64,000 nucleotides of DNA from Deltaproteobacteria bacterium RIFCSPHIGHO2_01_FULL_43_49. Its GTDB lineage: Bacteria > UBA10199 > SPLOWO2-01-44-7. The notes below the pieces were generated by a model, which was given only the letters and a program-made list of their open reading frames with translations, was not told the DNA's origin and made no database searches. Below, one piece after another: positions 17,706-23,352 of this stretch; the stretch's first letter is position 1; every line of letters starts with the position of its first letter. The stretch spans positions 257,148-321,147 of the forward strand of contig MGRG01000005.1 of NCBI GenBank assembly GCA_001798075.1. Reading direction: 5' to 3'. The translations under genes and the position numbers were made by a program.

Positions 17706-18692
17706 TTATTGGAGTTCTAGTTTTTTTATCATGCGGATATTGTAATATCGGTCATCATCCGTAGCGCTCGAAATTTTTTTTTGTTGAAAAGAAGTCACCA
17801 GATCCTGCACCGCTTCTTCTATAGTGTGGTAGGCTTGAAAACCTAATTCCTCTCGAATTTTTTCAGAAGAAATATGATAAGATCGGTTGTCATCCGTCTT
17901 GGCAATTACGATTGTAACATCTTCGCCTACAATGTTGCGAACTCTTTCTGCAATATCAAAAACGCGAAGATTTTGGTAACCGACGTTGTAAATTTTTCCG
18001 TCTATTTTTTCGTCAGGCCATTGGAGAGACTGAAGGTATAAATCGGCTATATCTTCAATGTGAATGTTTGGGCGCATTTGTGAGCCGCCAAAAACAGTGA
18101 TCACGCGACGGTTAAAGGCATGATTTGTTAAGATGTTAACCGTGAGATCCAGCCGTAATCTGGGAGAATAACCACAAACCGTTGCTGGTCTTACGATGAG
18201 CGTGACAAAACCTTTGGAGCGCTTTTTCAACAAGACATCCTCGCACATCGCCTTGTATTTGGAATAGTCCGTAAGGGGTTTTAATTCAAGCTCTTCGGTC
18301 ACATTTTCTTCCTCCTTAATTCCGTAAACACTGGAAGAGGATGCATAGATAAAGCGTTTAATGCCCGCGTCTTTTGCTATATCAACCAGATGAATGAAGG
18401 CATCATAATTAATCGACTTGCCCAGTTCCGGATTGAGATCAAAGCTAGGATCATTAGAAATGCAGGCGAGGTGAATGACCGCATCACAGCCTGGCAGCGT
18501 CCTTTTCAAAACACTCACATCACGAATGTCGGCTTTGATTTGTTCCAGATTGGGATGGCCTTGAACGGTTTCAAAAACACCCTCACCATAAAGATAGAGG
18601 TCCAAAACTTTAACGGAGTAACCCTTAGCCAAAAGTTTGGGAACCAAGACAGCGCCAACATAACCCGCTCCTCCTGTAACCAAGGCTTTCAT
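17706..18692 (-). CDS. NAD-dependent sugar epimerase/dehydratase
   Basis: 328 residues from ATG 18692, which overlaps the preceding stop as ATGA; the in-frame extension upstream lies wholly inside the kinase gene. TGGAGYVGAVLVPKLL is the NAD-binding motif, ASSSSVYG the catalytic Ser region and YSKYK the active-site Tyr/Lys. RPATVCGYSPRLRLDL and the FGGSQMRPNIHIEDIADL block match extended SDRs that act on NDP sugars, including GDP- and CDP-linked forms. The exact substrate is unclear. Strong coupling with the cytidylyltransferase-PfkB gene suggests it acts on that enzyme's nucleotide-linked product. Confidence 0.9.
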   Translation of the reverse strand: MKALVTGGAGYVGAVLVPKLLAKGYSVKVLDLYLYGEGVFETVQGHPNLEQIKADIRDVSVLKRTLPGCDAVIHLACISNDPSFDLNPELGKSINYDAFIHLVDIAKDAGIKRFIYASSSSVYGIKEEENVTEELELKPLTDYSKYKAMCEDVLLKKRSKGFVTLIVRPATVCGYSPRLRLDLTVNILTNHAFNRRVITVFGGSQMRPNIHIEDIADLYLQSLQWPDEKIDGKIYNVGYQNLRVFDIAERVRNIVGEDVTIVIAKTDDNRSYHISSEKIREELGFQAYHTIEEAVQDLVTSFQQKKISSATDDDRYYNIRMIKKLELQ

Positions 18693-20215
18693 TTTAGAAT
18701 GGATTCGATACTTTTGAGTAATTGCACACGATTGATTGAAGTCTGGTTTCCCAAAATCATCACGGCTTGTGCCCCTACCAGATTGCCAACAAGACCCATA
18801 ATGTCTGGAGGCATTTCTTTGGCAGCGCATAGTGATGTTAAGGCAAGCAGGGCATCTCCCGATCCTAAGCGATCGATCACTTTATTGGCAAAGGCAGGGC
18901 ATTCAAAAAATCCGTCGCCGTGTCGGTAAAAAATGGTTCCCCGCTTGCCAAGAGTGACCATGATGGATTGACTGGAAAGGCGATTTGCCAAATTTGTTAT
19001 CAGTATTTTGAGATCTCCTGTGCGGTTTCGGTGGTCGAGTCTTAACTCATTTTCATGTATGCAAATATAATCGGCCCGTTGATATTTCGAAATGGTATGA
19101 AAACCGATGTTCGCGGCATTGATTTGCGCATTCACAGCAAGAAAGGGGGCTTTATCTTGAAGGAGTTTACCGATTTTGGGGGTCATGAGGCCGTGACCAT
19201 AGTCGGCTACAATCACCACATCACAATCTTTTACTTTGCTTTCCAGCAGCTTGCACAATGCCTCCTCCTCACCGTCGTTTAAGGGCTCATCATTCATCTC
19301 GTAGATTTCCAACAATTTGGAGAGGAGATAGTTTTCAACAAATCGTCTTTTAATAATGGTGGGGGCATTGGTCTTATAAATAAAATTCGTCAAGACATTT
19401 TTCTTTAAGTTTTTGCGAACAAATTCCTCCTGTGTATTCTGCGTTCCCAAGTAGGTGACCAACTCCACTTTATTGCAAAAATCGGCAAGGTGATTGGCAA
19501 CGGCAAGGCTTCCCCCTGCATGGATGTCCTGGCGGAGATAGCGCATGGCAAGGATCGCCTCCTTGGCCGACTTTCCCATCGCATCGCAGTAGATGTATTC
19601 ATCCAGGATGGCCTCCCCAATCACCATGACGTTTAAGGATTTTAAACTTTCCAGGCAGTTAAAAACAGTTTGCTTTGAGTATTTCTGTCGAAACTCGACC
19701 AGATAATTATTCACCTCCGGGGGGTATACCGGCAGATGGTTATTTAAGATGTTGGAGGCACTGAAGGTAATGTCCTCTGTAAATTTGATTTCGCCACCGG
19801 CAGAACGGACAGCTTCTTCTTCGATGAGAATTCCTCCTGTAATGTCTTTGGAGGCGTCTTTATAATCGGGACCCTTTGCATAAACATCCGGACGAATCAT
19901 TTTGATGGCGTTTACAGCGGTGGGGCTGTCATTGATGGCAACATAATCGACAACATTTAAGGCCGCGATTGCTTTAGCTCGCAAGATTTGTGTAAAGGCG
20001 GGCCTGAGTGGCCCCTTGTTCACGTGAGCATCTGCTGTGATGGTAACAACCAAAATATCTCCGAATGATTTGGCCTCTTCAAAATGTTTGATGTGACCAA
20101 TATGCAAGAGATCAAAAACACCATGACATTGAATAATTTTCTTCCCGCCGGTTTTTAACAACTGAAGTTCTTCAGCAAGATCTTTTAAATCTTTTATTTT
20201 AGATTCGCAAACCAT
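18689..20215 (-). CDS. Cytidylyltransferase-PfkB sugar kinase fusion (HldE-like, domains reversed)
   Basis: 508-residue bifunctional protein. Residues about 28-160 form a nucleotidyltransferase with GVFDLLHIGH (HIGH at 38-41, the HxGH site). From about 195 a PfkB/ribokinase domain follows (MVIGEAILDEYIY, AGGSLAVANHL), ending with RLGSGDALLAL where Asp454 is the catalytic base. E. coli HldE carries the same activities in the opposite order (kinase first). It should phosphorylate a sugar phosphate at C1 and then attach a nucleotide, giving ADP- or CDP-activated heptose or a related sugar. The kinase half contains GSGD instead of GAGD, still compatible with activity. Neighbours GmhB and HddA support a heptose pathway. 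Confidence 0.9.
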   Translation of the reverse strand: MVCESKIKDLKDLAEELQLLKTGGKKIIQCHGVFDLLHIGHIKHFEEAKSFGDILVVTITADAHVNKGPLRPAFTQILRAKAIAALNVVDYVAINDSPTAVNAIKMIRPDVYAKGPDYKDASKDITGGILIEEEAVRSAGGEIKFTEDITFSASNILNNHLPVYPPEVNNYLVEFRQKYSKQTVFNCLESLKSLNVMVIGEAILDEYIYCDAMGKSAKEAILAMRYLRQDIHAGGSLAVANHLADFCNKVELVTYLGTQNTQEEFVRKNLKKNVLTNFIYKTNAPTIIKRRFVENYLLSKLLEIYEMNDEPLNDGEEEALCKLLESKVKDCDVVIVADYGHGLMTPKIGKLLQDKAPFLAVNAQINAANIGFHTISKYQRADYICIHENELRLDHRNRTGDLKILITNLANRLSSQSIMVTLGKRGTIFYRHGDGFFECPAFANKVIDRLGSGDALLALTSLCAAKEMPPDIMGLVGNLVGAQAVMILGNQTSINRVQLLKSIESILK

Positions 20216-21177
20216 TCGATTGTTGCTTTGGCAATGGAGTTTTCATCCCACACAGGGGCCTCTTTCCAATAGTCGATATTTTCCAGCATTTTTTGAACCC
20301 CTTCTTCAAAAGAGATTTTGGGGTTCCATCCCAATTTTTGCTGAATTTTTGAGATATCTGCAAAGGTGATGTCGGGTTCCCCAGGTCTTTTCGGAATGTG
20401 AATTGCTTCACCTTTCAAAAGCTTAACTAAGTAATTAATACTCTGGGGTTTCGCACATCCCACGTTTAAAACCATTCCAGACAGCGCTGACCCTGCTGTT
20501 TTCACAAACGCTTCAACAATGTCAGTTACATAAATAAAATCGCGTGTTTGGTTGCCATCACCGATGATGGTATAGGGTTTCCCCTTCAATTTTTGTGCCA
20601 AGAAAACACCAAAGACGGCCCCGTAGGTTCCGCTTGTTCGTTGTCTAGGACCGTAGACATTAAAAAGTCTCAGTGAGATGGCGGGGATTTTATAGATCTT
20701 TGCCCAGTGCGTGACAATTGCTTCTCCCAGATATTTCGTCAGGGCATAAGGATATTGGGGTCTCGCGGGGGCTGTTTCCGGAGTCGGAAAAGTATCAGGG
20801 AAACCGTAACAAGAAGAAGAGGCGGCGTAGAGAAAACGCTTTACATTGGATTTTCTTGCAGCTTCAACAACGCTGGCTGTTCCCTCCACATTGGCGCGAT
20901 GATACTCCAGTGGTCGTTGAATAGAGGGGACGATATCGGCGAGGGCTGCAAGATGAAAAACCCAGTCTATATTTTCAAAGCAAGGAAGGATCGTCTTATG
21001 GTCAGTGATATCGGTTTCATGAATTTTTAGATGGGGATTGTTTTTAGCAAAATCCAAATTTTGTATCCGCCCAGTTGAAAAATTATCTAACACGACAACC
21101 TCGTGGTTATCTTTGAGCAGCCTTTCAACCAGATGGCTTCCGATAAATCCAGCGCCGCCCGTTATCAAGGTTTTCAT
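20194..21177 (-). CDS. UDP-sugar 4-epimerase-like protein
   Basis: 327-residue extended SDR: TGGAGFIGSHLVERLL, VLDNFSTG (Asp contacting the NAD ribose), ASSSCYGFPD and YALTK (catalytic Tyr/Lys). RLFNVYGPRQRTSG and GDGNQTRDFIYVTDIV are the blocks of GalE/WbpP/RmlB relatives. Closest in pattern to UDP-GlcNAc/UDP-Glc 4-epimerases. It overlaps the regulator gene by 4 bases and the next gene by 22 bases, so it is the first enzyme of the operon. Substrate specificity cannot be set by eye. Confidence 0.9.
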   Translation of the reverse strand: MKTLITGGAGFIGSHLVERLLKDNHEVVVLDNFSTGRIQNLDFAKNNPHLKIHETDITDHKTILPCFENIDWVFHLAALADIVPSIQRPLEYHRANVEGTASVVEAARKSNVKRFLYAASSSCYGFPDTFPTPETAPARPQYPYALTKYLGEAIVTHWAKIYKIPAISLRLFNVYGPRQRTSGTYGAVFGVFLAQKLKGKPYTIIGDGNQTRDFIYVTDIVEAFVKTAGSALSGMVLNVGCAKPQSINYLVKLLKGEAIHIPKRPGEPDITFADISKIQQKLGWNPKISFEEGVQKMLENIDYWKEAPVWDENSIAKATIEWFANLK

Positions 21178-21674
21178 GGTAATGTAATTTTTTGAAGAAT
21201 GTTGATAACCAGACCCCGTTTGCTTTGATAGGGCTGGTCTGAAAGATTTAAGATAACGCCTTCTGAGTTTGCTTTTACAATTGTTATTCCCTCAAATTGA
21301 CTCAAAGCTTGTTCAACGAGAGGTCTCAAACATCCATCGCCATGGATAGATAACCGACGATGCCCCTGATGGTAAAGATTGTTTATGATATTGTTGAGTG
21401 AATTTTGTAGCGTTTGGTAGTTTTCGATAGTTCGCGAAAGACATTGGTAAGAGCGCCTTGCGAGTTCAATAAGCCCCTTTGGTGTTAGATGGTAGCGAAG
21501 ATTTTTTTTATTAAACGCCTTGACCTTGATAAAACCGGTTTCGATCATTTTTCTCAAAACAGCATTGACAACCCCTATGGAAATACCGGTTGCTTTAGCG
21601 AGTTGTCTTTGTGAAATGATACCGCCGTCTGTACTGAGTTGGGCCAGGATGGCTGTTTCTTTATCAGTTGTCAT
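21174..21674 (-). CDS. Winged-helix (MarR-type) transcriptional regulator heading the operon
   Basis: 166 residues. Residues 20-52 form a helix-turn-helix (ISQRQLAKATGISIGVVNAVL) followed by a wing with LRYHLTPKG, as in MarR-type EPS-associated regulators. Residues about 75-166 form a second alpha/beta domain (HRRLSIHGDGCLRPLVEQAL) that could sense a ligand such as a nucleotide sugar. It is the first gene of a more than 21-kb operon. Its leader holds two abutting GTTC-N7-GAAC palindromes overlapping the predicted start site, so it may repress or activate its own operon. ATG 21674 lacks a Shine-Dalgarno. The DNA target is inferred from position. Confidence 0.85.
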   Translation of the reverse strand: MTTDKETAILAQLSTDGGIISQRQLAKATGISIGVVNAVLRKMIETGFIKVKAFNKKNLRYHLTPKGLIELARRSYQCLSRTIENYQTLQNSLNNIINNLYHQGHRRLSIHGDGCLRPLVEQALSQFEGITIVKANSEGVILNLSDQPYQSKRGLVINILQKITLP

Positions 21675-21697
21675 GAAGTTTGAGAGGAGAAAACTGA

Positions 21698-21709
21698 CAG
21701 GCTACCGCC
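21698..21709 (-). promoter_or_regulatory. ops-like element (RfaH/NusG-paralogue recruitment site)
   Basis: The minus-strand leader contains GGCGGTAGCCTG, matching 11 of 12 positions of the ops element GGCGGTAGCGTG known in RfaH-controlled operons. It lies in the transcribed leader, 24 bases before the regulator ATG and about 70 bases after the predicted transcription start, as in JUMPstart leaders. It is followed by a very long polysaccharide operon, the standard RfaH target. A specialised NusG paralogue binding here would suppress Rho termination. No RfaH gene is in the window, so the factor is inferred. Confidence 0.6.
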
Positions 21710-21754: not shown

Positions 21755-21784
21755 GTTCACGAAACGAACGTTCAACAGCTGAAC
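21755..21784. promoter_or_regulatory. Double palindromic operator candidate, two GTTC-N7-GAAC units
   Basis: Reading along the plus strand, GTTC, seven bases, GAAC is immediately followed by a second GTTC, seven bases, GAAC: two 15-bp inverted repeats joined end to end, with an internal 8-bp palindrome GAACGTTC. The unit at 21770-21784 has 5-bp arms (GTTCA/TGAAC). It sits one base downstream of the predicted -10 box of the minus-strand operon, over the likely transcription start. Two sites one and a half helical turns apart suit two winged-helix dimers. The likely ligand is the regulator encoded by the first gene. Inferred. Confidence 0.55.
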
Positions 21785-21785
21785 A

Positions 21786-21812
21786 AGTATACGGACAGAC
21801 TGAAAGGGTCAA
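21786..21812 (-). promoter_or_regulatory. Sigma70-like promoter of the 21-kb minus-strand operon
   Basis: On the minus strand TTGACC (21807-21812) serves as -35 and TATACT (21786-21791) as -10, with a 15-base spacer, shorter than the preferred 17. Transcription would begin near 21779, inside the double palindrome, giving a leader of about 105 bases. The -35 lies only 9 bases beyond the end of gmhB, so this promoter is wedged against the previous operon. No terminator is visible between the two, so read-through is possible. Confidence 0.45.
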
Positions 21813-21820
21813 CGGTAAAA

Positions 21821-22342
21821 TCAACTGGATTGGATTAAAAGAGCAGCATCAAATAAACATTTCACTTTGTAATTGCCTTTAACCCTCTTGTTATATGGAG
21901 CTTCAACAAGGATGCTTTTACATCCCGCAGCAGCAGCTGCTTTAGTATCTGCACCCGTGTCTCCAATCATATACGAATGGGACAAATCAATATGCCATTT
22001 CTTTGCTGCCTCAAGCAACATCCCCGGTTTCGGTTTTTTGCATAAACAACCCTCTGTATTAGTATGAAAACAAATAAAAACATCATCAAAAGGTAATTGC
22101 TCGATGCAAGACTGCATCCAACGCCACTCCCGCGGTGAAACATGTCCATGGGTAATATCTGGCTGATTCGTAACAAGAATGCGCAGAAAACCAAAAGAGC
22201 CAATCAAAGAAAGTATCTGATGAACATCGGCTTTAATCTGAAATTCGTCGCGTTTCCAAGGTGCTGTAGGTTTTCCGTTACGTAAGATTGGTGTAACAAT
22301 GACCCCATCACGATCAAAAAAGATTGCCCTTCTTTTTTTCAT
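21821..22342 (-). CDS. gmhB: Heptose-1,7-bisphosphate phosphatase-like HAD enzyme
   Basis: 173 residues from ATG 22342 (ATGA overlap with the kinase gene). HAD motif I FFDRDGVIV gives Asp10 nucleophile and Asp12; motif II LVTNQ; motif III/IV KPKPGMLLEAA and IGDTGAD. A zinc loop typical of GmhB is present (C91, H93, C99, C101). GmhB removes the C7 phosphate from D-glycero-D-manno-heptose 1,7-bisphosphate, the step after the heptose kinase. The adjacent HddA kinase gives the GDP- or ADP-heptose branch. GmhA isomerase and HddC nucleotidyltransferase are not in the window. Confidence 0.9.
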   Translation of the reverse strand: MKKRRAIFFDRDGVIVTPILRNGKPTAPWKRDEFQIKADVHQILSLIGSFGFLRILVTNQPDITHGHVSPREWRWMQSCIEQLPFDDVFICFHTNTEGCLCKKPKPGMLLEAAKKWHIDLSHSYMIGDTGADTKAAAAAGCKSILVEAPYNKRVKGNYKVKCLFDAALLIQSS

Positions 22343-23352
22343 GAATAGCGTCGCGGAATGTAAAATCCATTTAAAAGAGTTGCACCCTCCCAATCATAGG
22401 AAAAATTGACTTCTTCAAGACCTTGTTGATGCATAGTAGAATGAACCTTTTCTCTTTCCGAAGGAGGAACAAAAAGCAAGAAAAGACCTCCGCCTCCCGC
22501 ACCAATGAGCTTACCTCCCAATGCTCCATTGTTGCGAGCTAATTGGTAGAGTTCATCAAAACGTGGATTGGACACCCCACCTGCAAGGTGTCTTTTGATT
22601 TCCCAATGTTCGTGTAAAAGTTCTCCGAAATGAAAAAGATCACTTTGGACAAGAGAATCATAGATACGAATACCGATATCTTTGATCCGACGATAATATT
22701 CATAAACATTCTTTCCATCATTCTTCTCTGCTGATTCACGCTGCGCTAGGAGAACAGTGGAACTTTCTCTCTTTTCTCCCGTATAAAATAAAAGAAGGTT
22801 GGATTTTAGTTCGTTCAGTGTTTCTTTGGTAATGGGGGGTTCCTCAACCGATACTGTTCCATCCTTTTCAATTTTTAATAATTTGAGGCCACCAAAACTC
22901 GCCATATAATGATCATGTTTCCCAATCGGTCTTCCTAGCATATCAATTTCAACAGAGGCAGCCAACTCTGCAAGAGTTTTTTTGTCAGGCGTTTTTCCCT
23001 TAAGATAAGAAAGGGCTTTCATTAAGCAGACTGTATAGGCGCTCGATGTCCCCATGCCAGTCCCATCGGAGAGATCCGATGAAAATGTAATCTGAAGACG
23101 TTCGGTAACACCGCTTAAGCGACAACAGGCACTCACCAATTCATTTTTTATATCATTGAGATTCTCGGCATATTCATTGATTCTGGCTTTTACTCGAATT
23201 CCATTTTCAATAGAAGGTTGCAGGATTGTAACATAGGCATAGTTGTCGATGGCAACACTCAAGACAAACCCACCAAAACGAGACGAATAGAATTGGAGAT
23301 CAGTTCCTCCCCCGCCTAATGCAATTCTTAAGGGTGCTCGTGCGACAATCAT
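22339..23352 (-). CDS. hddA: GHMP kinase, D-glycero-D-manno-heptose 7-phosphate kinase-like
   Basis: 337 residues from ATG 23352, preceded by AGGAG; a longer reading would overlap the fused oxidoreductase gene. GHMP motifs: PLRIALGGGGTDLQFY at the start, the ATP loop SDGTGMGTSSAYTVC, and GGKLIGAGGGGLFLLFVP near the C-terminus. The pattern matches HddA, which phosphorylates heptose 7-phosphate at C1 with alpha stereochemistry for GDP-heptose. Overlap with gmhB supports a heptose route. L-fucose kinase-like or other sugar 1-kinase activity is the alternative. Confidence 0.88.
   Translation of the reverse strand: MIVARAPLRIALGGGGTDLQFYSSRFGGFVLSVAIDNYAYVTILQPSIENGIRVKARINEYAENLNDIKNELVSACCRLSGVTERLQITFSSDLSDGTGMGTSSAYTVCLMKALSYLKGKTPDKKTLAELAASVEIDMLGRPIGKHDHYMASFGGLKLLKIEKDGTVSVEEPPITKETLNELKSNLLLFYTGEKRESSTVLLAQRESAEKNDGKNVYEYYRRIKDIGIRIYDSLVQSDLFHFGELLHEHWEIKRHLAGGVSNPRFDELYQLARNNGALGGKLIGAGGGGLFLLFVPPSEREKVHSTMHQQGLEEVNFSYDWEGATLLNGFYIPRRYS

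Follow-up and report, generated by a model that had tools for sequence, protein, structure and literature searches.

In a bacterial polysaccharide cluster, two abutting palindromes of the form GTTC-N7-GAAC lie at the predicted start site of an operon whose first gene encodes a winged-helix regulator. The cluster is in the window, which is the whole stretch of 64,000 nucleotides that we analyzed. The palindrome pair is most likely a conserved site, present in distant bacterial groups, through which a repressor controls its own sugar-coat cluster. The regulator's cluster usually appears to carry a second switch as well, of the RfaH type, which would act on elongation. Specifically, we estimate a probability of about 84% that the tandem is an autorepressor operator at -10/+1 and that RfaH, recruited at the ops element, then drives elongation through the polysaccharide operon.

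A large and unstudied family of regulators, found near surface-polysaccharide genes, would thereby gain both a DNA site and a probable mechanism, along with a link to elongation control by RfaH and ops. The cluster would also be a concrete case of one operon whose initiation control and elongation control are encoded together. The predicted operator is sharp enough to be located and tested in relatives that have been cultured, for example Geobacteraceae or Marinomonas.

The tandem palindromes and their operon

The features of the locus are listed in Table 1. Read along the minus strand, the locus runs TTGACC, 15 bp, TATACT, 1 base, the 30-bp tandem, 46 nt, the ops element, 23 nt, and ATG. An earlier note on this DNA had described two 15-bp inverted repeats that abut exactly at 21755-21784, with GAACGTTC at their junction, immediately downstream of a -10 box. 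The sequence agrees on each point, with the predicted TATACT one base away. This promoter was missing from a simple promoter scan because its 15-bp spacer is one base below the usual range. The -10 box is placed alike in homologous promoters: in most of those that score well, the site begins within about 3 bp of the end of the -10.

Table 1. Features of the regulator operon and its promoter (positions within the window; a dot marks features without a strand)
Feature	Position	Strand	Evidence or remark
Predicted -35, TTGACC	21807..21812	-	5/6 match to TTGACA; 15-bp spacer
Predicted -10, TATACT	21786..21791	-	5/6 match to TATAAT; 1 base upstream of the tandem
Palindrome GTTCAACAGCTGAAC (GTTC-N7-GAAC), putative promoter-proximal operator half	21770..21784	.	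Sequence, and conservation at homologous promoters
Palindrome GTTCACGAAACGAAC (GTTC-N7-GAAC), putative second operator half	21755..21769	.	Exact 15-bp tandem is also found elsewhere
Palindrome GAACGTTC at the junction where the half-sites abut	21766..21773	.	Sequence
ops element GGCGGTAGCCTG in the leader	21698..21709	-	46 nt downstream of the operator; the only GGCGGTAGCNTG in the genome
MarR_EPS-like winged-helix regulator (166 aa)	21174..21674	-	HTH_24, 6e-11; TIGR04176, 3.7e-17
Gene 2, NAD-dependent nucleotide-sugar epimerase/dehydratase	20194..21177	-	GDP_Man_Dehyd, 2.5e-64; Epimerase, 4e-62; 4-bp overlap with the regulator gene
Gene 3, HldE-like bifunctional sugar kinase/cytidylyltransferase	18689..20215	-	PfkB, 1e-15; CTP_transf_like, 2e-10
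Gene 4, NAD-dependent epimerase	17706..18830	-	

Single palindromes are unremarkable. GTTC-N7-GAAC occurs 24 times in the genome, versus 44 times for the reversed control pattern, and it is not enriched in the window. The abutting pair is not a chance occurrence, because the exact pair is found just once in the 2.2-Mb genome and most of the pairs in the window's class of bacteria are at the homologous promoter. We rejected a wider regulon in the window's genome: none of the remaining 22 palindromes is located at a promoter, and 21 fall within open reading frames. The search of other promoters that the earlier note had proposed thus gave no further promoter-placed site among the 22 that we checked, and judging by this placement, the site appears to have one target in the genome.

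The regulator has a winged-helix DNA-binding domain, with matches to HTH_24, MarR, and MarR_2 that are all above their cut-offs. Its match to TIGR04176 (MarR_EPS; E = 3.7e-17) extends from position 5 to 101 of a model of 105 positions, and the score of 62.3 bits is under the curated cut-off of 88. The setting is that of TIGR04176, an exopolysaccharide cluster: downstream are epimerases, the sugar kinase/cytidylyltransferase, and glycan genes, and polysaccharide genes on the same strand run on from gene 4 towards position 403.

AlphaFold (with a 25-sequence alignment; pLDDT 91, pTM 0.71) predicts a winged helix-turn-helix, a long helix (residues 65-102), and a small alpha/beta domain at the C terminus. 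In Foldseek, the model matches MarR proteins, including SlyA-DNA (3q5f), and these matches are dominated by the winged helix-turn-helix. The C-terminal domain is reduced relative to that of distant homologs, which have a fuller Rossmann-like domain (with weak Pfam matches, to PglD_N and Methyltransf_14, in two of them). Pfam searches with isolated C-terminal pieces found nothing, and neither these nor the Foldseek matches pointed to a ligand. That the regulator might sense a nucleotide sugar is weakly supported.

Conservation of the predicted operator

A search of contigs with the window's protein alone found no relative; a search with a three-sequence alignment found homologs of the regulator. 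The palindrome is shared by homologs with only 21-41% identity, where it again stands at their own promoter. In a first set of 44 homologous loci from many families, the 300 bp upstream contained an exact GTTC-N7-GAAC in 26 cases, while dinucleotide shuffles averaged 0.23 and never exceeded 2. Across spacers of 0-19, only 7 was enriched (26 versus at most 1), and across all 256 inverted 4-mers, GTTC had 26 occurrences and the runner-up had 4. In most of these loci, a -10-like box immediately precedes the site.

Five outgroup homologs (L080, L082, L085, L090, and L091) have no site. Both L080 and L082 have a common AT-rich sequence, GATATAACGTATA, near the promoter, and this may be another type of operator. 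At another locus (L095, from G195), GTCC-N7-GGAC is found behind the -10 in place of GTTC-N7-GAAC. This is possibly a changed DNA specificity, which could be used to map the recognition residues.

Within the window's class, 17 of 46 genomes contain the regulator gene; G001-G005, which are close relatives in the same family, do not. When we took the promoter to be that of the entire unit containing the regulator, the site was exact in 12 of the 16 testable units and had at most one mismatch in every one. In G030, where an rfaH-like gene precedes the regulator, the exact site is before the rfaH-like gene, as predicted if the operator belongs to the promoter of the unit. The 46 genomes contain nine tandems with at most one mismatch, of which seven are at the homologous promoter, including all four exact ones (in G000, G019, G021, and G029). 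The remaining two do not exceed the number seen with the reversed control. G026 has three abutting units, with mismatches in each.

In a second phylum (that of G306), 104 of 246 genomes have homologs. The exact site is in 81 of 90 upstream regions and a one-mismatch site is in 2 more, but because genomes in one phylum are related, these counts are not independent events and simple Fisher tests overstate significance. The next spacing had 2 occurrences and the next inverted 4-mer had 5. The fuller consensus in this phylum is GTTCA-N5-TGAAC. Six of its genomes (G484, G494, G509, G517, G590, and G598) have exact 15-bp tandems, so we dropped the idea that the tandem is restricted to the window's class.

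Ten genomes of the class have an rfaH-like gene and lack the regulator, and in none of them (0/10) does the promoter of the rfaH-like gene have a site, whether exact or with one mismatch. Together with the location of the other palindromes away from promoters, this indicates that the site follows the regulator. The comparative data strongly support the prediction that the tandem is the operator of the adjacent MarR_EPS-like winged-helix gene. With a conserved palindromic operator predicted at its own promoter, the regulator would belong with the autorepressors. The earlier note had suggested an autoregulatory switch and had asked if the motif is conserved in relatives; the motif is kept at homologous promoters in both the class and the second phylum, and these promoters, the independent phylum, and the regulator-free genomes all favor such a switch.

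Could the palindromes be bound by another, global regulator, such as a LexA-type SOS repressor? LexA-type boxes use similar GTTC/GAAC half-sites: the alphaproteobacterial box is GTTC-N7-GTTC and the Gram-positive box is GAAC-N4-GTTC. However, only the inverted form with N7 is conserved here, and the palindrome tracks the regulator gene, as seen from its presence at the regulator's units and its absence at the 10 rfaH-like promoters of regulator-free genomes. A global regulator would also have sites at several promoters, whereas the other 22 palindromes in the genome are off promoters. With no box shared by several SOS promoters among these, we rejected LexA; control by a global regulator seems very unlikely. 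Nor do we favor the view that the inverted repeats work in the RNA, as leader hairpins. Part of the repeat would be transcribed, as the predicted start is inside it, but transcription would miss some of the first palindrome, because its first half-site adjoins the -10. Also, the letters of the half-sites are fixed (GTTCA/TGAAC in 52-54 of 54), while an RNA stem would permit compensatory changes, and in other lineages a single site overlaps the start codon. We give the hairpins almost no credence.

It is improbable, in our judgment, that the regulator binds the tandem and there activates transcription or forms a roadblock to polymerase coming from upstream genes. MarR-type proteins can activate, and because the promoter lies in a 147-bp gap between same-strand genes of a polysaccharide cluster, transcription could read through from 21821-22393. 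Yet in most homologous promoters the site abuts or overlaps the -10 and the start, which is usual for repression of initiation, and this placement is unchanged in other members of the regulator family that have quite different neighborhoods. Repression of initiation by the regulator at its own promoter remains our preferred reading.

The ops element and RfaH-like proteins

The leader contains the ops consensus on the non-template strand, as in operons controlled by RfaH and ops. The earlier note had placed an ops element 46 bases downstream of the palindromes; GGCGGTAGCCTG is indeed there, and the arrangement recurs in the class, with ops in all 15 testable loci (those not cut by the end of a contig). 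There is no evident Shine-Dalgarno sequence before the start codon that follows ops, either in the window (21675-21700) or in L025, L026, and L028. RfaH-controlled genes of E. coli are likewise reported to lack it (PMC7819879).

RfaH-like proteins are cleanly separated from NusG by their profile scores (>173 versus <80 bits), and 26 of the 46 genomes in the class encode one. These include 16 of the 17 genomes with the regulator and 10 of the 29 others (Fisher p = 6e-5, not corrected for relatedness); in the 17th genome with the regulator (G013), the locus is cut by the end of a contig. In the window's genome, the RfaH-like protein (C8:216-692) is a paralog separate from the NusG on C15, with scores of 204 and 65 bits, respectively. 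Its best match in the PDB is RfaH (5ond), barely ahead of NusG chains. The RfaH-like proteins retain a lysine and the arginine of a TRG motif that align with K10 and R73 of E. coli RfaH, which contact ops (PMC7593976).

The regulator and rfaH-like genes are often adjacent; in the window's genome they are unlinked, with the latter on contig C8. Six genomes (G009, G015, G019, G020, G029, and G034) have the order promoter, operator, regulator, rfaH, ops. Five (G000, G011, G016, G021, and G026) have operator, ops, regulator, with rfaH upstream or elsewhere, and two (G030 and G035) have operator, rfaH, ops, regulator. Two genomes have what is apparently an insertion in the leader, between ops and the regulator: a 23S_rRNA_IVP-family gene in G011 (L049:3851-4228) and a DUF2204 nucleotidyltransferase-like gene in G026 (L051:5121-5651). 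Contig C8 carries a second polysaccharide unit (L062:210-1930), which begins with the RfaH-like gene; an ops element (at 771, GGCGGTAGCTCG) and a gene for the chain-length protein Wzz follow. Because this unit has its own ops, a single RfaH-like protein may act on two operons.

Of 60 loci in the second phylum, 25 have a NusG-family gene close to the regulator. A downstream ops in the sense orientation is found in 5 of 6 tandem loci versus 2 of 54 others, a post hoc comparison that involves about four families; this suggests that the tandem form and ops may evolve together. In tandem loci L165, L169, L172, L181, and L185, the sense ops is 0.6-1.2 kb downstream. Loci L214, L217, and L219 encode short homologs (~120 aa) without the C-terminal domain and have ops ~100-130 bp upstream, preceded in L214 and L219 by a NusG-family open reading frame. 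The elements' conservation, position, and specificity, and their co-occurrence, are direct observations in these genomes.

Proposed mechanism and comparison with known systems

For binding, the direction of control, the inducer, and recruitment at ops, we infer the following from sequence. Dimers of the regulator, probably two side by side, would bind the tandem across -10/+1. As the centers of the palindromes are 15 bp apart, the two dimers would be on roughly opposite faces of the helix. The bound dimers would block initiation of the regulator's own operon; the position of the site is what points to repression. A signal, perhaps a ligand of the C-terminal domain, would lift the repression. 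The freed RNA polymerase would then leave the promoter and pause at ops, ~70 nt into the leader, where the RfaH-type paralog of NusG would be recruited for processive elongation across the long polysaccharide operon. In most relatives, the rfaH-like gene is in or beside the regulated unit, so one promoter would supply both the repressor of initiation and the activator of elongation; against this, the window's genome has its rfaH-like gene outside the regulated unit.

More tentatively, this could be a widespread two-stage switch, in which an autorepressor that senses a metabolite via a Rossmann-like domain is combined with an RfaH-type factor behind one promoter and a single operator (GTTC-N7-GAAC), while ops gates the remainder of the operon, and in which the tandem operator accompanies ops-type recruitment in at least two phyla. 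We see this generalization as possible but somewhat doubtful.

Our literature search found no paper that gives the motif, a study of TIGR04176, or a pairing of MarR with RfaH; most subscription journals were outside the search, so this absence is not proof. Wang et al. (2020) mention an HTH regulator associated with RfaH cluster CL4, and mention no operator (PMC7593976). The earlier note had called the arrangement undescribed, which stands for the operator, as we found no paper on it, but the HTH neighbor of an RfaH cluster already had one sentence in that paper.

The regulator resembles TIGR04176 (MarR_EPS) in its winged-helix core and its location in polysaccharide clusters, and a true member of that family in G133 (above the cut-off) and one in G328 have the same palindrome. 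Unlike TIGR04176, it has ~60 extra C-terminal residues, which form the alpha/beta domain, and a tandem instead of a single site. The autorepressors MarR, SlyA, and PcaV share the winged-helix fold and a palindrome that overlaps their own promoter. In contrast to a typical MarR, our regulator lacks the N-terminal dimer helices and has the long helix and the C-terminal alpha/beta domain. The likeness to RfaH/ops of E. coli and to UpxY, TaA, and LoaP lies in the ops element in the leader, the polysaccharide operon, and the RfaH-type paralog that is distinct from NusG. Unlike in those systems, the rfaH-like gene is usually within the regulated unit, and elongation control is predicted to be coupled to a dedicated winged-helix gene that regulates itself through its own operator. 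Each part is of a known kind; what appears to be new is the operator and the way in which the parts are combined.
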